The notes under the pieces are model-generated. The model searched no databases, was not told the origin of the DNA, and saw only the letters and a list, made by a program, of their open reading frames with translations. From the NCBI GenBank assembly GCA_030539395.1, contig JAUNSC010000024.1, forward strand, positions 1 through 54,632: 54,632 nucleotides of DNA, given 5' to 3'. Source of the DNA: Eubacteriales bacterium (GTDB taxonomy: Bacteria > Bacillota > Clostridia > Lachnospirales > Lachnospiraceae). The translations under genes were made by a program, and so were the position numbers. Shown piece after piece: positions 2,384-45,858 of the stretch; within the stretch, counting starts at the first letter, position 1; the number at the start of each line of letters is the position of its first letter.

Positions 2384-2487
2384 CAGGCTATTTTTGATGT
2401 GCAAATGTGAAGATAGTGCTTTCAAATCTGGATTTATGGCTTGCGTGAACATTTTACAGGCACTTACGGGGAATGGAGGTTGATATT

Positions 2488-2607
2488 GTGGCAACAGATA
2501 ATCGAGGGCGAAAACTTCCAAGAGGAATTTATTATCGTTCTGGTTCGTATGAATCACGCCCGGCGATAAACAATAAAAGGTATTATGTGCGAGGGGCGAC
2601 GACATAA
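2488..2607 (+). pseudogene. Truncated integrase N-terminal fragment (39 aa)
   Basis: A GTG start with an upstream GGAGG encodes 39 residues beginning MATDNRGRKLPRGIYYRSGS and including SYESRP. The RGRKLPxGI..R.GSYE pattern is the N-terminal arm-binding domain of tyrosine recombinases from conjugative transposons and phages of Firmicutes. The frame stops after 39 codons with no core-binding or catalytic domain, so this is a remnant of an integrative element. The surrounding 2240-2690 stretch holds no intact gene. Confidence 0.55.
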
Positions 2608-2623
2608 AATGCATGAGAAAAAA

Positions 2624-2652
2624 TCGACACTTAAAATATGATGCGGTATAAT
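2624..2652 (+). promoter_or_regulatory. Sigma-A-type promoter before the ADH remnant/KPR gene
   Basis: TCGACA (2624-2629), a 17-nt spacer and a perfect TATAAT (2647-2652). It would drive the decayed alcohol dehydrogenase and probably the ketopantoate reductase-like gene behind it. Confidence 0.55.
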
Positions 2653-2689
2653 ATTTTATATACTAAAATGTACAGGAGGCCGAGTGATT

Positions 2690-3010
2690 ATGCTTGCATA
2701 TACTTATGTTTCAAAGGGCGATTTTCAGTTGCGGGAGAAAGCGAAACCGGAGCTGTTAGATGAAAAGGATGCGTTTTTTCTGCAAACGGGGGTATGTGAA
2801 TAATTGTGTTGATGGAAATGAAGTATGTGCGTTGGGATGCAGGATTGACGGAGGACAGGCAGAGTATGTGCGTGTTCCTTATGCGGACCAGGGGCTGACG
2901 GTGATCCCGGATCATGTTTCGTTTGAGCAGGCGCTTTATGAAGAAAACCAGATACTGCCGCTTCCGGAAATGTATGGGGAAAAATCTTACGTTTAAGAAC
3001 GGAGGAAAAC
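2690..3010 (+). pseudogene. Zinc-dependent alcohol dehydrogenase, decayed
   Basis: Three pieces of one zinc ADH lie in different frames. The N-terminus starts at ATG 2690 behind a good AGGAGG (MLAYTYVSKGDFQLREKAKP, then stop at 2801). A central piece in the next frame reads ALGCRIDGGQAEYVRVPYAD, the segment that normally leads to the cofactor domain. The C-terminal catalytic piece reads ENQILPLPEMYG and, after another shift, GKNLTFKNGG. Intact relatives are about 340-350 aa; here the catalytic zinc Cys/His region and the whole NAD(P)-binding domain are missing. It is clearly non-functional. Promoter and RBS remain and may serve the next gene. Confidence 0.8.
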
Positions 3011-3013
3011 AGA

Positions 3014-3931
3014 ATGAAGTATTTAATTATTGGTGCCGGCGGCACCGGAGGATGTTTAGGTGCATATATGACAGAAGCGGGAAAAGATGTCACTATGATT
3101 GCCAGAGGTGCACATTTAAAGGCAATACAGGAAAATGGACTTCGGATGGAGACGACACGAAAGGGAAACTATACGGTTCCGTATGTAAAGCCAATGAAAA
3201 TGGAGGATTATCAGGAACATCCGGATGCAATTTTTGTATGTGTGAAAGGATATTCTCTGGAGGACACGATTCCGTTTATCAAAGATACGGCAAAAAAAGA
3301 TACGGTAGTGATTCCTGTTTTGAATATTTATGGAACAGGGGGACGGATGCAGGAAAAATTGCCGGATCTTCTGGTGACAGATGGATGCATTTACATAGCG
3401 GGTGAAATAAAAGAGCCGGGGTGTCTCTGGCAGAATGGAGATATCTTCCGCGTGGTTTTTGGCGTGCGAAATCCGGCGGAATACCGGCCTGTATTAAAGG
3501 AAATCCAGAAAGATCTTCTGGACAGTGGAATAGATGGAATTTTATCTGAGAATATCCGAAGAGATGCACTGAAGAAATTTGCATATGTTTCTCCGGCGGC
3601 TGCCTGCGGACAGTATTATGATGTTTCGGCGGGAGAGATGCAGAAACCGGGAGAAATCCGGGAAACATTTGCCGCTCTGATCGGTGAGATAGATAAACTT
3701 GCCCGGGCTATGGACATTGATTTTGAAGAAGACATTGTTAAAACAAATCTGGATATCCTGGATGCGCTTACACCAGAAGCATCTACTTCTATGCAGAGAG
3801 ACATCCGGCAGGGAAAAAATTCAGAAATAGACGGGTTAATTTACGAGGTTGTTCGTCTTGGTGAGAAACATGGAGTGGAATTGCCGGTATATCGTAAAAT
3901 TGCAGAGAAATTGAAGGAGAATTATTATTGA
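3014..3931 (+). CDS. Ketopantoate reductase family protein (ApbA/PanE-type)
   Basis: NAD(P)-dependent reductase of the 2-dehydropantoate reductase family (pantothenate branch of CoA synthesis), 305 aa, close to the family length. The Rossmann motif GAGGTGGCLGAYM lies at residues 7-19, and the dinucleotide domain continues with IFVCVKGYSLEDTI. The helical C-terminal ketopantoate domain includes TSMQRDIRQGKNSEIDGL, which carries the usual catalytic and substrate region (S/T-M-x-x-D...G..-E-I). GGAGG lies 9 nt before the ATG. Many Clostridia have several members of this family acting on unknown 2-oxo acids, so the pantoate assignment is not certain. It follows the decayed ADH and overlaps a small ORF by TTGA. 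Confidence 0.8.
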   Translation: MKYLIIGAGGTGGCLGAYMTEAGKDVTMIARGAHLKAIQENGLRMETTRKGNYTVPYVKPMKMEDYQEHPDAIFVCVKGYSLEDTIPFIKDTAKKDTVVIPVLNIYGTGGRMQEKLPDLLVTDGCIYIAGEIKEPGCLWQNGDIFRVVFGVRNPAEYRPVLKEIQKDLLDSGIDGILSENIRRDALKKFAYVSPAAACGQYYDVSAGEMQKPGEIRETFAALIGEIDKLARAMDIDFEEDIVKTNLDILDALTPEASTSMQRDIRQGKNSEIDGLIYEVVRLGEKHGVELPVYRKIAEKLKENYY

Positions 3932-4031: not shown

Positions 4032-4445
4032 CTAAATCGTAAACTGTATAAGATTCATATTTTCATCATAGGCGGCGGTATATTTGACATCGCCGCCTTT
4101 ATGTTTACAGATGATAACGGCAACGGCACAATTTTTGCCGTCTTTCTCCTGACCGATGACAGCGGCTTTGCCGAATTCCTGAAAAGCACCGTACCTGGCC
4201 AGAACTTCTTTGTAAGAGATATAGGCATCTTCGGTAACAACAGATTGATATTCCGGAGCGAATCGTGCCTGCCAGCCCTCAAAATTATCAGATTCAGCCA
4301 GGGTGATATCCTCCATGGCCTGAGTCTTTACGTCTTTTTCATTGAAGCAGTCGGCCAGTTTGTTTTTGCTGCTGCATCCGCCAAGTGCGCAGATTGTCAA
4401 AACCAGTACCAACAGAGAAGGGAAGCCTTTAAAAATTTTTTTCAT
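4032..4445 (-). CDS. Lipoprotein with DUF3887-like domain
   Basis: 137 aa with a lipoprotein signal: KK, hydrophobic core SLLVLVLTIC and lipobox ALGGC with Cys24. The mature part is a small alpha/beta domain (EGWQARFAPEYQ, YISYKEVLARYGAFQEFG, YTAAYDENMNLIQFTI) that fits the DUF3887 family: small cell-surface lipoproteins of unknown function. GAAAGGATGG lies upstream of the start at 4445. It is next to the sensor-kinase operon but separated from it by 45 nt. Confidence 0.7.
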   Translation of the reverse strand: MKKIFKGFPSLLVLVLTICALGGCSSKNKLADCFNEKDVKTQAMEDITLAESDNFEGWQARFAPEYQSVVTEDAYISYKEVLARYGAFQEFGKAAVIGQEKDGKNCAVAVIICKHKGGDVKYTAAYDENMNLIQFTI

Positions 4446-8205: not shown

Positions 8206-9570
8206 ATGATGCAGATTTTATTACCCAAACAAGTGAAAATAATTATAGAGACTCTGGAGACAGCCGGCTACGAAGCATATGCAGTAGGCGGCTGTGTTCG
8301 TGATTCCATTTTAAAAAGGAAACCGGATGACTGGGATATCACAACTTCGGCCAAACCGGAACAGGTGAAGTCGCTGTTCCGCAGGACGATCGATACCGGG
8401 ATACAGCACGGGACAGTGACGGTTCTGATGGATGGACAGGGATTTGAAGTGACCACATATCGTATTGACGGGGAATATACAGACAGCCGTCATCCTAAAG
8501 ATGTCAGTTTTACAGATAATCTGACAGAGGACTTAAAGCGCCGTGATTTTACGATTAATGCTATGGCATACAGTGAAAGCTGTGGGCTGGTGGATGTTTT
8601 TGGCGGCGTACAGGATTTGGAAAATGGTATAATCCGATGTGTCGGAAAGGCTGCGGAGAGGTTTGATGAAGATGCACTCCGCATTTTGAGGGCGGTCCGT
8701 TTTGCGGCACAGCTGGGTTTTGAGATTGAAGAAGACACGCAAAAAGCGGCGTCACTTATGGCGGAAAATCTGAGAAATATCAGCGCGGAGAGAATACAGA
8801 CGGAGCTGGTAAAATTACTGGTGTCATCGCATCCGGAGGTGTTAAAAAAGGCATATGAACTGGGACTGACAAGGATCATTCTTCCGGAATTCGATATTAT
8901 GATGGAGACGGAACAGAATAACCCTCACCACATGTATAGTGTGGGAGAGCATACACTGAAGGCTCTGGAATATGTGGAGTCAGATAAAGTGATGCGTCTG
9001 GCGGTTCTGTGTCATGACTTTGGAAAGCCGGCATCAAAGACGACGAAAGACGGGACAGATCATTTTTACGGGCATCCGCTGATCAGTGAGCAGATCGCGT
9101 CACAGGTTCTGCATAGATTGAAGTTTGATAATGATACTATTTATAAAGTAAAAAAACTGGTCTTGTATCATGATACACGGCCATCTATAAATAAAGAAGA
9201 AATTGAGCAGCTTCGTAAGGGGAAGAGAGTTGTTCCGGAAAAATTTGTACGCCGCCTGATTTTTAAGGTGGGAAAGGAATTGTTTCCTCAGCTGCTGCAG
9301 GTTCGTGGGGCAGACACCCTTGCCCAGAGCGATTACGGAAAGACAGAAAAGCTGATCCTTCTGGAACAGATGACAGAAATCTATGAGGAGATCGTCGAAA
9401 AAGATCAGTGCCTTTCATTAAAAGAACTGGCGGTAAATGGCAAAGATCTGCTGGCTGCCGGCCTGAAACCGGGAAAACAGATGGGAGAAATACTGAACCG
9501 TATGCTCGAAGACGTTCTGGAGGAACCGGAACATAATACAAAAGAATATCTGATGAGCCGGTATCTTTAA
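8206..9570 (+). CDS. cca: CCA tRNA nucleotidyltransferase (class II, with HD domain)
   Basis: Adds or repairs the 3' CCA end of tRNAs. Needed here because the tRNA-Met gene in this window does not encode CCA. Seen: VGGCVRDSIL (residues about 27-36), DDWDITT with the metal-binding acidic pair, RRDFTINAMAY, DEDALRILRAVRFA and an HD domain with LCHDFGKPASK and the later LVLYHDT. At 454 aa the length fits the Gram-positive enzyme with an HD tail. GAGG lies before the start; a second ATG follows at once at 8209. Confidence 0.93.
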   Translation: MMQILLPKQVKIIIETLETAGYEAYAVGGCVRDSILKRKPDDWDITTSAKPEQVKSLFRRTIDTGIQHGTVTVLMDGQGFEVTTYRIDGEYTDSRHPKDVSFTDNLTEDLKRRDFTINAMAYSESCGLVDVFGGVQDLENGIIRCVGKAAERFDEDALRILRAVRFAAQLGFEIEEDTQKAASLMAENLRNISAERIQTELVKLLVSSHPEVLKKAYELGLTRIILPEFDIMMETEQNNPHHMYSVGEHTLKALEYVESDKVMRLAVLCHDFGKPASKTTKDGTDHFYGHPLISEQIASQVLHRLKFDNDTIYKVKKLVLYHDTRPSINKEEIEQLRKGKRVVPEKFVRRLIFKVGKELFPQLLQVRGADTLAQSDYGKTEKLILLEQMTEIYEEIVEKDQCLSLKELAVNGKDLLAAGLKPGKQMGEILNRMLEDVLEEPEHNTKEYLMSRYL

Positions 9571-40192: not shown

Positions 40193-40774
40193 ATGGACAA
40201 AGAAGTAAAAGAGGCAGCAGAGCAGGTGGCAAAGGGACGTGGAAACCGCAAAGGAAACACCAGTAAAAGTCCGATCATACCGACAGGCAATATCAATATA
40301 ACAGATAAAGAAAACGCCGCAATGTGTGAGTATGCTCTTGATATATTTCACAGTCCAGCGGTTGATCTGCGTGATCCGGAAGCAGTAGCAGCGGCTATTG
40401 ATGGATATTTTAAGAACTGCATAGCGCGGGGCCTCAGACCGGGGAACCTTGGATTGTATGCAACGCTGGGATTGTCTAAGCAGGAAGTGAGCAACGAATT
40501 GCGTGGAGTTACGCATAAACTAAGTACATCGACAATTGACCTCTTAAAAAAAGCCAAGGTCGCCCTGAGCACCTATCGCGAGATGCTGGGCAGCACCGGA
40601 AAGATTAATCCTGTTACCCTGATCTTCTGGCAGAAGAACTATGACGGGCTGGAAGATAGGCAGACAATGGAGATCGCGCCAGCCAAGGACATGGAGCCGG
40701 GGCAAACGCCGGAAGAGATTGCGGCTCAGCTGGAGCAGGATATACCGGTTGATGCGGATTTTGAGGAGATTTGA
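40193..40774 (+). CDS. terS: Terminase small subunit
   Basis: 193 aa from ATG 40193 (AGGGAGAG upstream). The N-terminal 35 residues are basic (AKGRGNRKGNTSKSPI). A middle HTH-like region (AAAIDGYFKNCIARGLRPGN, LGLYATLGLSKQEVSNELRG) should bind the packaging site. The end, GSTGKINPVTLIFWQKNYDG then LEDRQTMEI, is typical of Clostridial TerS. It is 3.4 kb upstream of terL, separated by small genes and an RNA region, an unusual distance. Confidence 0.75.
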   Translation: MDKEVKEAAEQVAKGRGNRKGNTSKSPIIPTGNINITDKENAAMCEYALDIFHSPAVDLRDPEAVAAAIDGYFKNCIARGLRPGNLGLYATLGLSKQEVSNELRGVTHKLSTSTIDLLKKAKVALSTYREMLGSTGKINPVTLIFWQKNYDGLEDRQTMEIAPAKDMEPGQTPEEIAAQLEQDIPVDADFEEI

Positions 40775-42104: not shown

Positions 42105-42383
42105 ATGTCTGGAATAGAATACCGTCCAGTAAGAGTAACTGAGCGGCGAAGAACAAAATTGGGAACTGAGACCACGGTTTCAGAAGGACTGTTTCACTGT
42201 TGGGCATCCGAACAATGGACATATAGTCCGATGATGCGTGGACAGGTTGGAGGTCAGATGCAAAGTACTTACGGAATTATTGAAATGAAAGATGGAAGCG
42301 TCAAAAAGGTATCGCCAGAAGAAATTCAATTTCTTGATAACAAAGCATTTGAATATCCGTATCCTGAGGAAGAAAGGAAATAA
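42105..42383 (+). CDS. Phage protein, unknown (92 aa)
   Basis: ATG 42105 with GGGTGATGAA upstream; an ATG at 42093 is also in frame. SGIEYRPVRVTERRRTKLGT, TVSEGLFHCWASEQWTYSPM and YGIIEMKDGSVKKVSPEEIQ form a small beta-rich domain. Last coding gene before the RNA-rich region. Confidence 0.6.
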   Translation: MSGIEYRPVRVTERRRTKLGTETTVSEGLFHCWASEQWTYSPMMRGQVGGQMQSTYGIIEMKDGSVKKVSPEEIQFLDNKAFEYPYPEEERK

Positions 42384-42483
42384 GTACTACATGATTATTG
42401 CAACTTTCGGAATTCTCCATTTCGGCCTTTGTTGGCATATAATCAGTCAGCCTGCCGAGCTGATTCAATTCATAAAATCAAAA

Positions 42484-42721
42484 CCGCCGTCAGTATCTGG
42501 CGTGTTGTGCCGCCGGTACGTTGCTGACCGGTCGAGGCATGAAGTCCCTGATAAGCCTGAGCGGCGGAAGTTTTGGGGATTATATAATATCCCCCGATCA
42601 AAAGGGCACAACATTGGGAATGGAAGCTGCTCAGGCGAAACAATCAACAGGCTAAAAAACAATACAACAAATCGCAAAATCTTGTACAGTGCGCTGACTT
42701 GAGCGGTACGGCGCACTTTTT
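42484..42721 (+). ncRNA. Structured RNA segment with three-way junction and terminator
   Basis: P1 GCCG/CGGC (42509-42512/42562-42565) encloses P2 CCGGT/ACCGG (42513-42517/42527-42531) and P3 AGGC/GCCT (42535-42538/42555-42558). A hairpin GGGGAT/ATCCCC follows, then a terminator AGTGCGC/GCGCACT at 42688-42717 with five T. Base pairing on this scale fits an RNA better than the open frame across it. Confidence 0.5.
42688..42721 (+). terminator. Intrinsic terminator in the RNA region
   Basis: AGTGCGC (42688-42694) and GCGCACT (42711-42717), then TTTT. Confidence 0.8.
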
Positions 42722-42798
42722 GGGGATTTGAAATTCTGGAAGAAAGGGCAAATATACCGGTGGTATCTGCTCAGGTGGGTTCGATACCCGCAATCCCC
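42722..42798 (+). ncRNA. tRNA-like element 1 (acceptor + T-arm mimic)
   Basis: GGGGATT (42722-42728) pairs with AATCCCC (42792-42798). A canonical T-arm GTGGG-TTCGATA-CCCGC (42775-42791) is stacked directly on it. The 46 nt between have no canonical D- or anticodon arm, but GGGCA/TGCTC and ATACC/GGTAT can pair. No CCA follows. It resembles a tmRNA-type or tRNA-mimic module. Confidence 0.55.
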
Positions 42799-43345
42799 TT
42801 TCCATTCACACAAATTGAAGCGCGAGAAGCTGGGCGGCAGGCGCTATCTGCAAGCCGGTGAGAAGATTTGCGTGGGTGGATGTCCAGTGCCGTCTGGAGT
42901 TTTCTTCCAAATGCTGATTGCCTACCGTAAGGGCATCAGAAAAAACTGTCGGTTGTGACATGATTGCGAGGCTGCGAATCTGATACGGCAGGTTTGCAGT
43001 AGTAGTATCAGTGAACCGATAGCACCTCGGAGTATCATATGCGGCGCATGAGAGCGCGTCGGGGAGTTTTCAAGAGGTGCAAATATTGAGGTAATATCCC
43101 GGAACCCACATGATATTACTGTATGCGTGGTGCAGGCAAATAGGCCGATAGGAAGAACTGTAGAGTATTGACTAGAATGCTTATAGCTTTCCGGTAGTCA
43201 AGGCTTTGCACATTGAACCGGATAATCAATGTGTGGTGTGCGGTGTTGTAATTGGAAGCATGGTGCCCTATTGCGGTTCGATTCCGTCATATGACTGTTG
43301 GGAGCATGGATTACGGAGCAGGTTCAAATCCTGTCCGCACATTGG
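42799..43345 (+). ncRNA. Large structured RNA candidate (GOLLD/ROOL-like)
   Basis: About 550 nt with no gene and many perfect non-crossing stems: CTGATAC/GTATCAG (42980/43005), GCACCTC/GAGGTGC (43022/43074), GTAATATC/GATATTAC (43091/43112), TTGACTA/TAGTCAA (43168/43195) and CACATTG/CAATGTG (43209/43227), plus smaller ones (TCCAG/CTGGA at 42883, AGCGC/GCGCT at 42819). Loop TCCGG (43190-43194) can kiss loop CCGGA (43218-43222). Size, prophage setting and adjacency to tRNA-like parts recall GOLLD and ROOL RNAs. Class membership is not proven. Confidence 0.55.
43237..43341 (+). ncRNA. tRNA-like element 2 (105 nt, nested T-arms)
   Basis: TGTGCGG (43237-43243) pairs with CCGCACA (43335-43341). T-arm GCAGG-TTCAAAT-CCTGT (43318-43334) stacks on it. 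A second T-arm-like hairpin (GCGG-TTCGATT-CCGT) lies inside at about 43273-43287. TTGG in the D-loop position is present, but no anticodon arm is evident. Forms the 3' end of the large RNA candidate. Confidence 0.5.
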
Positions 43346-43383
43346 AATATGTTGCGAAATCCGGCATATGCGAACTTTGATAA

Positions 43384-43412
43384 TTGAATATTGATGGTTG
43401 GCGGGGTATAAT
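43384..43412 (+). promoter_or_regulatory. Promoter of the membrane-protein moron
   Basis: TTGAAT (43384-43389), 17-nt spacer, TATAAT (43407-43412), 33 nt before the gene at 43446. Confidence 0.75.
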
Positions 43413-43445
43413 TATGTCATATAATACACTAAAGAGGAATACAGA

Positions 43446-44102
43446 ATGAAAGATTGGATAAAAGAATTGGTGTTTTCATCATCGTTTAGTTCGATTTTAG
43501 GAATATTTGTAACAGCAGCGTTGACATTCTTTTTTACTAAAAAGGCTCAAAAGTCGAAGCAATCTACGGACATTTGTAACTTGCAATTGGAAAAAGTTTT
43601 TTATCCGTTATATTTAATGGTTTATTCTAAAAAGGCGGATGAGATTAACGGGAAGAATTTATGTGTCAATTTAGTGAATAAAAAAAAGAGATATTACTTA
43701 TATTTGCCAAGCGATTTTGTCAGAATTATAGAACGGATTGAGAAAGAGACGGAAAACAATTTAATTTCACAAGAAACCATAAAGACATGCAAAACTTACA
43801 TTGAGTACCAATATTTTAAATTGAGAAGAGAGCTGGGGTATTCAAGTTGGTTTAGTATAAATTTTGGAAATAAATATGGTTTGTATATATTTACGAAATG
43901 TGCTTTTTGTGTATTACTTTCAATATTAGTTGCATTGTTTTCTATTTTAGTTGTATTTGGTGGTGAGTTATATCAGTTTTCCCAAGATTTATTTAATTAC
44001 ATTTCATACGCCATTGGCATAATAGGGGTGGCTTATATAGTTATAATATTTTTTTACATAGCTTGGTGTATTTATTGGTTTATGCGTTTTAAGAATCGAT
44101 AA
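43446..44102 (+). CDS. Membrane protein, moron between RNA region and terL (218 aa)
   Basis: AAAGAGGAA precedes the ATG. One N-terminal span (SSILGIFVTAALTFFFT), a soluble middle (DICNLQLEKVFYPLYLMVYS, VRIIERIEKETENN) and two C-terminal spans (FCVLLSILVALFSILVVFGG and AIGIIGVAYIVIIFFYIAWC). Very AT-rich. It has its own promoter and terminator, so it is expressed apart from late genes. No family recognised. Superinfection exclusion is a possible role, by position only. Confidence 0.7.
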   Translation: MKDWIKELVFSSSFSSILGIFVTAALTFFFTKKAQKSKQSTDICNLQLEKVFYPLYLMVYSKKADEINGKNLCVNLVNKKKRYYLYLPSDFVRIIERIEKETENNLISQETIKTCKTYIEYQYFKLRRELGYSSWFSINFGNKYGLYIFTKCAFCVLLSILVALFSILVVFGGELYQFSQDLFNYISYAIGIIGVAYIVIIFFYIAWCIYWFMRFKNR

Positions 44103-44110
44103 TTTCAGAT

Positions 44111-44142
44111 ACCAACCATCAATATTCGGTGGTTGGTTTTTT
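44111..44142 (+). terminator. Intrinsic terminator of the membrane-protein moron
   Basis: CCAACCA (44112-44118) pairs with TGGTTGG (44130-44136), then six T. Confidence 0.85.
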
Positions 44143-44169: not shown

Positions 44170-45858
44170 ATGGAGTTGGAACAAAATAAGAAAATCATCC
44201 AAAAACTGCATAAAACAGATCTGCATCGGTACCGCAACCTCTCCATGCTTTTCGATATGGTTCTGGCAGTCAAAGATGATGACCTTGAACTGGCAAAATC
44301 CGAATGTCAGCACGTCAAAAATCTGGCGGCTATGGGTACCCGGAGTGATTTGCGTTTTAAAGATTTATACTGGAAAGCAGTGTTGTTTCTGGCTCCATAC
44401 TTCTTCGATGATTTTCTCATCTACATGGAAAAAGACAGACCAGCAGAAAAGCGTTTTTATTTACCAAGACGCAAAGTCTTAAAGATAATTGTAGATGATC
44501 TGCAGGATTTAGCAGATAGGAAGCTTTATTTCTTGGGAATATCGTTACCGCCGCGTGTAGGTAAATCAACTCTCTGTATTTTTTTTATGGCATGGCTGGC
44601 TGGGCGAAATCCAGAAAATACAAGCGCTATGGCCGGACACAGTGATACGCTTACAAAGGGCTTTTATACGGAACTGTTATCTGTAATCAATGATACCGAT
44701 ACATATAATTTTTACGAGATTTTCCCTAATTGCGCAAAAGTTACAACATCTGCAAAAGATGAAACGATAGATTTGACGGGAAAAACCAGAAGATATTGTA
44801 CTGTGACTTGTCGGGGTATCTTAGCAACATGGACAGGTGCTGTAGATATTTCAAATGGCGGTTGCCTCTATGCGGACGATTTGATTGAGGATCTCGAAGA
44901 AAGCTTGAATATATCTCGTTTGGATAAGAAGTTTGATGCCTATATGGGTCAGCTTCGTGACCGTATGAAGGATGATTCGTTTGAACTAATGGTCGGAACC
45001 CGTTGGTCAGTCCTCGATATTTTGGGACGCGTTAAAACAAAATACGAAGGGAATCCACGATACAGGTTCCGGGTTATACCGGCTTTGAATGAGAAAGACG
45101 AAAGTAATTTTCAATATGATTATGGTGTGGGATTTTCCACTGAATACTATCATCGGATGCGTGATGATCTGGATGATGGCACTTGGTGGGCAAAATATAT
45201 GGGCAGGCCATATGTGAGAGAAGGGCTATTGTTTCCGAAAGAAGAATTACAGTATTATAACGGGATTTTGCCTGCTGGTCCGGCAGATCAAATTCTTGGT
45301 TCCTGCGATGTGGCGTGGGGTGGCGGAGATTATGTTTCCGCTCCAGTGGGATATGTGTATGGAGATTCTGTCTATATACATGATGTTGCTTACAATAATG
45401 GGAATAAAGAAGTGACCAAACCCCTTGTAGCGGCAGTTTATGTGAGAAATGAAATCAATCAGGCGAAGTTCGAGGCGGATAATGGTGGAGATGAATATGC
45501 GGAAGATGTGGATGCTCTTATGCGAGAGAATGGATATCACGCCAACATCATTAGTAAAAAAACATCCAATAAGAGCAGTAAAATGGCAAAGATTATACAG
45601 TACGCGCCAGATATAAAGAAATTCTACTTTCTGGATGATGCAAGGCCTGGTAAAGTTGGAGAGCCTACAGACAGAAAATATCGGGACGAGGCATACACAA
45701 ACTTCATGAGTGATTTAACCATGATGGTTATTGAGCCGAAAGGAAACAAACATGATGATACAGCAGATTCGCTCCGGATATTGTGCGAGTTGATGGAAGA
45801 AAATGGGACTATCGTGTCGGTGATGTCTCGGCAAGAGAGAGCTGTTCTTGGATTATAG
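44170..45858 (+). CDS. terL: Terminase large subunit
   Basis: 562 aa packaging motor. ATPase: SLPPRVGKSTLCIFFMAWL (Walker A near 126-134), CLYADDLIEDLEES (Walker B near 233) and LMVGTRWSVLDILG. Nuclease: GSCDVAWGGGDYVSAPVGYV (first Asp near 380), KFEADNGGDEYAED and the last acidic motif KHDDTADSLRIL. Pumps DNA into the prohead and cuts it. GGGAGG precedes the ATG. Separated from terS by 3.4 kb. Confidence 0.92.
   Translation: MELEQNKKIIQKLHKTDLHRYRNLSMLFDMVLAVKDDDLELAKSECQHVKNLAAMGTRSDLRFKDLYWKAVLFLAPYFFDDFLIYMEKDRPAEKRFYLPRRKVLKIIVDDLQDLADRKLYFLGISLPPRVGKSTLCIFFMAWLAGRNPENTSAMAGHSDTLTKGFYTELLSVINDTDTYNFYEIFPNCAKVTTSAKDETIDLTGKTRRYCTVTCRGILATWTGAVDISNGGCLYADDLIEDLEESLNISRLDKKFDAYMGQLRDRMKDDSFELMVGTRWSVLDILGRVKTKYEGNPRYRFRVIPALNEKDESNFQYDYGVGFSTEYYHRMRDDLDDGTWWAKYMGRPYVREGLLFPKEELQYYNGILPAGPADQILGSCDVAWGGGDYVSAPVGYVYGDSVYIHDVAYNNGNKEVTKPLVAAVYVRNEINQAKFEADNGGDEYAEDVDALMRENGYHANIISKKTSNKSSKMAKIIQYAPDIKKFYFLDDARPGKVGEPTDRKYRDEAYTNFMSDLTMMVIEPKGNKHDDTADSLRILCELMEENGTIVSVMSRQERAVLGL

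Follow-up and report, generated by a model that had tools for sequence, protein, structure and literature searches.

What is encoded in the stretch that separates the two terminase genes in a phage or prophage of the Lachnospiraceae, and why is it flanked by elements resembling tRNAs? The window, i.e., the whole stretch of DNA analysed (54,632 nucleotides), is a prophage or phage with PHROGs matches to the terminase small subunit (terS, 40229-40771), the terminase large subunit (terL, 44170-45855), the portal and the major head protein, and on this annotation the region of interest sits between terS and terL. The four small open reading frames within or across the region have shown no PHROG family at E ≤ 1, and the next gene downstream (43446-44102) is without family matches. 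The region has proved to encode a genuine structured RNA, which almost certainly represents a real RNA family. In the account towards which we lean, it is a phage-encoded, trans-acting RNA of a family not contained in Rfam 15, which would be released between the tRNA-like elements and serve late infection. The features on which the argument draws are the following:

42722-42798, plus strand: tRNA-like element 1 (descriptor match; fold z -2.31)
42799-43236, plus strand: predicted mature RNA of 438 nt between both tRNA-like elements, as their anatomy suggests
42883-42898, plus strand: P1, a short hairpin (TCCAG/CTGGA) immediately 5' of the core motif (fold, scan)
42890-43083, plus strand: conserved RNA core of 194 nt, described by covariance models R1 and R2 (166 bits, E 4.2e-42 with R1, a match that holds by construction, as the window core is a founding member of R1)
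42914-42939, plus strand: P2 hairpin, 42914-42918 with 42935-42939 (paired in 7/7 members)
42940-42947, plus strand: invariant AAAAAACU (7/7 members)
42947-43021, plus strand: P3 closing helix, 42947-42954 with 43014-43021 (8/8 pairs in the window)
42972-42999, plus strand: P3a hairpin CTGCGAATCTG/CAGGTTTGCAG with loop ATACGG, 42972-42982 with 42989-42999 (11/11 pairs in the window; fold)
43022-43080, plus strand: P4 helix, 43022-43028 with 43074-43080, holding CGGAGTA and GGGGAGTTTTCAAGA (covariation)
43044-43057, plus strand: P4a, 43044-43047 with 43054-43057 (2/4 pairs with double changes)
43083-43236, plus strand: 3' extension with the third to fifth stems of the earlier note (stems exact)
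43237-43342, plus strand: tRNA-like element 2 (Rfam tRNA match, descriptor match, relatives)
43372-43413, plus strand: conserved promoter-like box belonging to the following transcription unit, a separate one (TTGAAT-17-TATAAT at 43384-43412)
44111-44137, plus strand: terminator-like hairpin closing the unit of the 43446-44102 gene (scan)

Stems and Conserved Fold

The earlier note on this DNA had listed five stems, and all of them are perfect Watson-Crick helices, of 7, 7, 8, 7 and 7 bp, while the loop words TCCGG (43190-43194) and CCGGA (43218-43222), between which it had proposed a kissing contact, are both present and complementary. Within 42975-43236 (262 nt), five mutually disjoint stems measuring 7 bp or more, with loops of up to 60, have been counted, a number that 0 of 2000 dinucleotide shuffles have reached (maximum 3). 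The same stem test over the full 547 nt has been matched by 0 of 1000 dinucleotide shuffles (maximum 4), and four such stems occur in just 2 of the 1088 window segments of 262 nt, both of them in the RNA region (starts 42951 and 43001). As the region taken as a whole has a folding energy that is just moderately low (z = -2.18, with 3 of 100 shuffles equally good), relatives have been needed to make the case.

Such relatives have been found for the core, which occurs in seven distinct phage or prophage sequences (window, L051, L054, L060, L085, L129 and L150). From 5' to 3', the core consists of the P2 hairpin, the invariant AAAAAACU, the closing helix P3 enclosing P3a, and then P4 enclosing P4a, and this order P2-AAAAAACU-P3[P3a]-P4[P4a] is accompanied by the covariation expected of a new family. 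In all seven members, P2 abuts AAAAAACU, P3 directly abuts P4, and AGUUU is found inside P4; the P4 motifs CGGAGUA and GGGGAGUUUUCAAGA are less well kept in L129 and L150. Going by complementarity, AAAAAACU and AGUUUU (43065-43070) could form a pseudoknot, for which they yield no covariation evidence because both barely vary. A hairpin at the place of P3a has been assigned by hand in 7/7 members, and the model alignment recovers it poorly (60% of cells). The place of P1 holds, by sequence reading only, different hairpins in other members; in the window, P1 plus the T-rich stretch after it is terminator-like in the scan.

The covariation that the earlier note had proposed to look for in relatives is thus borne out for the core and not for all of its stems. 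Solely 43022/43074, which is helix P4, belongs to the conserved fold, and stem 42980/43005 has given way to another pairing, as it overlaps and excludes the hairpin 42972-42982/42989-42999, which has counterparts in other members. Neither stems 43091/43112, 43168/43195 and 43209/43227 nor the kissing loops have relatives among the fetched loci. The same holds for the whole 91-nt 5' part and 154-nt 3' part flanking the core, and the 438-nt unit consequently rests on one sequence.

Covariation

The model alignment sets L051 and the window one base off in P3, where four window pairs consequently appear broken. Because this shift of two rows renders several P3 double changes in the model-fitted counts artefactual, P2, P3 and P4 have been recounted in a hand register anchored on AAAAAACT and on the P3-P4 junction. 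Across the seven members, 137 of 139 cells of the three helices are paired in this register, and 13 of the 20 pairs have changed on both sides. These comprise 5/5 pairs of P2, 3/8 of P3, with a single unpaired cell across members (L129, pair 8), and 5/7 of P4, again with a single unpaired cell (L054) and with the same count in the tool's helix 7. Of 5000 shuffles, which take the chosen register as given and ignore relatedness, one reaches 13 pairs, and none reaches the values of the other three measures.

Two further counts have been obtained from the alignments themselves. The unfitted MAFFT alignment of five members (A1) has shown double-sided changes in 7 of 22 RNAalifold pairs, this structure having been predicted from A1 itself. 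The alignments A3-A5, which had been fitted to the model and are biased in its favour, have given tool counts of 13/35 pairs (5 sequences), 17/35 (6) and 18/32 (7); as many have been seen in 0 of 500 shuffles in each case, and slid versions have given 1-5. Redundant rows had been dropped before counting, namely L068 (core identical to L060), L161 (identical to L150), L025/L101/L126 (same stretch as L051) and L143 (same as L085). G-U pairs occur among the conserved pairs, as expected of an RNA rather than of a DNA element.

Relatives and Rarity of the Core

The first lead has been a BLASTN match (79% over 54 nt, part of a longer similarity) in G105, a genome belonging to the same family, and patterns taken from this similarity have retrieved L054, L060 and L085 from IMG/VR. 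L129 (Dulem virus 39), which had been fetched on account of another shared motif and which the model had not seen, has been matched by R1 with 25 bits (E 4.5e-6 in 13,752 bases). L150 is missed by R1 and recovered by R2 (23.7 bits, E 6.5e-4 in 491,590 bases).

The core is rare. In the family sample, R1 has matched 4 of 397 genomes at E ≤ 0.01, and two of these have been accepted, the genome that is the source of the window (G000) and G105; G034 (24.7 bits), which looks like protein-coding DNA by sequence, and G288 (20.8 bits) have been dropped. The order sample has again returned these same two genomes (2/392), and the phylum sample, searched with R2, the source genome only (1/96). BLASTN of the region has found no match among phage and plasmid records, and L003, the nearest terL relative in IMG/VR (63%), has no RNA core. 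At E ≤ 1, loose BLASTN has given matches, mostly short, in 343 of 397 genomes; L026 from this set looked like coding sequence when read, and the other loci fetched from it have entered profile searches only. Pattern scans have yielded genuine loci, as matched by profile or covariance model, in 1/2, 3/15, 4/24, 3/10, 4/8 and 4/18 cases, a pattern scan of genomes in 1/12 (same contig as L051), and a scan with another motif in 5/19 (L060, L068, L085, L150 and L161). Loci with 12.8-14.6 bits and most helices missing (L073, L089, L086, L070 and L083) have been dropped as chance, as has L151 (14.4 bits, E 0.15).

No published description of the RNA has been found in the titles and abstract openings of the open-licence literature; one of the structured RNA candidates from human microbiomes (PMC8040213) may overlap with it.

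The tRNA-Like Elements and a Possible Release of the RNA

The acceptor and T arms are the main features by which substrates are recognised by RNase P and by tRNA 3' nucleases. Both elements at the flanks of the RNA possess a 7-bp acceptor stem and a T arm with the TTCRA loop of tRNAs, and since these arms are kept, the anatomy fits an excision between tRNA-like elements. Element 1 combines the acceptor stem GGGGATT/AATCCCC with the T arm GTGGG-TTCGATA-CCCGC and is without a normal anticodon arm; it scores 16.3 bits with the Rfam model tRNA-Sec, below the gathering score of 47, and has no relative in the fetched loci. Element 2 has the acceptor stem TGTGCGG/CCGCACA and likewise no recognisable normal anticodon arm; read by eye, two segments like a D arm and two like a T arm can be made out in it, and its Rfam tRNA score of 28.4 bits (E 9e-4) lies just under the gathering score of 29. 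Its relatives are L154, L158 and L159 (E 1.2e-11 each; L154 = L158), and the acceptor stems of element 2 and L158 both pair at 7/7 positions with differing letters. Neither element has been called as a tRNA, with an anticodon, by ARAGORN, and going by ARAGORN and the descriptor, the window has tRNA-like elements only, and no tRNA island. The descriptor (7-bp acceptor stem plus T arm) matches both elements (42722-42798 and 43237-43341) and has given 0 matches in 20 plus-strand shuffles; its other matches in the window are one register variant and an AT-rich match (43386-43508) that is likely due to chance. Three of the seven members (L054, L129 and L150) have a tRNA or tRNA-like element whose start lies 1-3 positions beyond the end of the core match, that of L129 being a normal tRNA-Ile. 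A further tRNA-like element of 58 nt, with acceptor, D-arm and T-arm sequence and apparently without an anticodon arm, has been noticed in L152 (7885-7942, minus strand; Rfam tRNA 48.9 bits).

In the reading that we favour, the RNA would be transcribed along with the late genes; RNase P would cut directly 5' of 43237, the transcript would be processed after 42798 by a tRNA 3' nuclease, and a stable RNA of ~438 nt with the conserved multi-helix core would thereby be released and act in trans late in infection. That the RNA is a separate molecule rather than a leader appears likely to us, and the chances of a release at the tRNA-like elements we take to be about evenly balanced. The release is opposed by P1, since a terminator at this place would cut the transcript before the core, and by the absence of a promoter-like site shortly upstream, the scan having listed none on the plus strand of 42350-43384. 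In L051, the core is followed by a 15-bp terminator-like hairpin before the next gene, without a tRNA-like element by the core, and cuts at tRNA-like elements thus cannot be universal. The promoter-like site before the L051 core is no better than chance, and over whole sequences such sites are not enriched (7 vs 5.8 in shuffles for the window, 1 vs 1.1 for L051). A motif TGGTACAA recurs in L143-L145, L150 and L051, in many cases with a TATAAT-like box some 20-25 nt further on, and perhaps marks a class of promoters specific to phages; its single copy in the window (20441) has no such box by eye.

Gene Neighbours in Related Phages

The position of the core varies. In the window, L054 and L129, it lies upstream of terL. 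On the contig of L054, the core is followed in turn by a tRNA-like element, small genes, rtcB (2452-3648) and terL. In Dulem virus 39, tRNAs precede the core, after which come tRNA-Ile, small genes, rtcB and then terL, with which the circular record begins. In L060 and L085, the core looks to be placed in the structural region: in L060 it precedes by some 2.4 kb a gene that is presumably for a scaffold protein, which it resembles, and in L085 what we take to be the same neighbour gene as in L060 lies upstream of the core, with the scaffold-like gene at the opposite end of the contig. The L051 core is followed by a gene of 943 aa that looks like a tape-measure protein. Because the neighbour gene differs between phages, a role in cis for one gene is unlikely.

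The gene rtcB, which encodes the RNA ligase RtcB, has been found in two of the five phage records holding the core, which include L060 and L068, fragments of less than 9 kb; the source genome of the window carries it only on another contig, and G105 has none. Its place between RNA and terL in two relatives hints at a role around tRNAs. Boxes 83-86% identical to the promoter-like box of the window occur in L002, L007 and L015/L017, and a similar one in L054. The box and the hairpin at 44111-44137 share sequence (CCAACC...GGTTGG) and bracket a gene that differs among the related phages L002, L007, L015/L017 and L054 and looks like an exchangeable cargo cassette.

Relation to Known RNAs

GOLLD and ROOL are reported to be phage or prophage RNAs near tRNA islands with unknown function, of which ROOL has matched the abundance of 16S rRNA in one strain and the large GOLLD RNA rises in expression during lysis (PMC12286853). 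The earlier note had considered the region to fit these classes or a new one. Its proposal of a non-coding RNA that is large and structured has held up, as have the prophage location, the place upstream of terL and the tRNA-like parts alongside, and for the class the results favour the latter option, as the core family is absent from Rfam 15. Neither GOLLD nor ROOL has been found with Rfam 15 over the window at the gathering threshold or, at E ≤ 10, over 42300-43460 (1161 bases) and 42700-43360 (661 bases). All matches up to E 10 are tRNA-Sec and tRNA on the flanks and, far below their cut-offs, DLG2-AS1_2 (9.8 and 14.0 bits vs 70) and sR35 (10.6 vs 60), which overlap the core. The ROOL model at E ≤ 10 has found nothing in the source genome or in its 14 control genomes, and the same model finds ROOL in G032, G213 and L019; its detection in L019, L052 and L053 shows that the search works. 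In the opposite direction, R1 and R2 have given no match to the ROOL loci L019, L052 and L053.

A divergent ROOL or GOLLD member missed by the covariance models, a reading already disfavoured, is very unlikely, even though the setting is similar. Like ROOL, the RNA is found in a phage or prophage, adjoined by tRNA-like elements and not by normal tRNAs. In G276, whose terL is 36% identical to that of the window, ROOL (383 bits) lies between tRNA-Trp and tRNA-Asn, ~3.5 kb upstream of terL, a distance which makes the shared slot a loose one. No other ROOL has turned up in the Rfam scans of 16 terL-bearing loci (L003, L006, L007, L011, L017-L021 and L044-L050; L006 and L018 represent the same place, and several have little upstream DNA). 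Against such kinship stand the missing RF03087 match above 99.1 bits and the 574 model positions of ROOL vs the 194-nt core here. Oligomers are a property of ROOL and GOLLD, an oligomeric RNA cage being the form of ROOL.

Other comparisons are less close. YrlA and the bacterial Y RNAs share a tRNA-like module and an RNA-repair setting with RtcB (PMC7790460), but they give no Rfam match at E ≤ 10, and the Ro60 (TROVE) protein has been found in 0 of 7 genomes or records, the source genome included. Theta ribozymes are likewise structured RNAs beside phage tRNAs in gut phages; they cut at the tRNA 3' end (example of 56 nt; PMC10879173), whereas here a 194-nt core lies 5' of a tRNA-like element. 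Self-cleavage and an HDV-like double pseudoknot are features of these HDV-like ribozymes, and the Rfam matches of the region contain no ribozyme family. Two phages carry a RAGATH RNA close to their tRNA or terL region, L129 a RAGATH-27 (4033-4116) and L047 a RAGATH-18 (3204-3276).

Function and Alternative Explanations

If the RNA acts in trans as postulated, it would fill a slot like that of ROOL in the related prophage and would probably serve late infection through tRNAs or translation, e.g., by protection or repair in concert with RtcB and the tRNAs of the phage. Taken by itself, a role related to tRNAs or translation is a tentative proposal, derived from the neighbours only. Part of the same evidence can be read differently: the tRNA mimics may be decoys or spare parts against host defences that cut tRNAs, with the core as a stabiliser and RtcB repairing the cuts in some phages. 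The elements do retain acceptor and T arms without a normal anticodon arm, and rtcB is adjacent in two phages. We nevertheless regard this as doubtful, as it names no nuclease and leaves the conserved core unexplained; moreover, L129 has normal tRNAs at the place of the mimics, and the L051 core stands without an adjoining one.

A leader that regulates the downstream late genes in cis, or an antitermination element for them, would agree with the position of the RNA upstream of the 43446-44102 gene and terL on the coding strand, and with the terminator-like P1. It is nonetheless improbable, since the gene after the RNA has its own promoter-like box, the terminator-like hairpin of L051 parts the core from the next gene, and the neighbour gene changes from phage to phage. 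A DNA element, e.g., a packaging site near the terminase genes, is suggested by the window copy between terS and terL, but the changes in the conserved pairs are compensatory, as in a single strand that folds, and G-U pairs are used, and no terminase gene has been seen beside the core in L051, L060 and L085, which makes this alternative extremely unlikely.

Returning to the trans-acting RNA, one may speculate, though it is rather doubtful in this extended form, about a modular RNA system of gut phages. It would be composed of exchangeable structured blocks (core, a 23-nt hairpin block and 5' blocks) and of tRNA mimics devoid of the anticodon arm, one kind of which has two D-arm/T-arm sets under one acceptor stem, and would, with the phage RtcB, keep host tRNAs or ribosomes usable late in infection. 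An RNA without detectable kinship to GOLLD and ROOL, in a comparable slot, with a tRNA-like frame and with an RNA ligase gene after it in two phages, suggests that, for a single task late in infection, different RNAs have evolved in several lineages of phages. The question lends itself to testing, as the conserved core is small, the borders are predicted and relatives are available.

Recurring Elements in the Non-Coding Blocks

A 23-nt element GTCCTTGCAGACANAAAATGGAC with a possible GTCC/GGAC hairpin has been observed in L060 (5876-5898), L085 (540-562, minus strand) and L129 (4951-4973), and in 16 further IMG/VR loci (L147-L162, several nearly alike). By eye, it often lies shortly 5' of tRNA-like elements, in non-coding stretches of seemingly exchangeable blocks. 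Inside the 5' block of L060 (5603) and L150 (2637), there is a tiny possible reading frame starting ATGAAGAAGCGATGTTAC with an apparent ribosome site. In the virus contig L162, a tmRNA match of 92.5 bits (8772-9078) is located ~650 nt after the 23-nt element.
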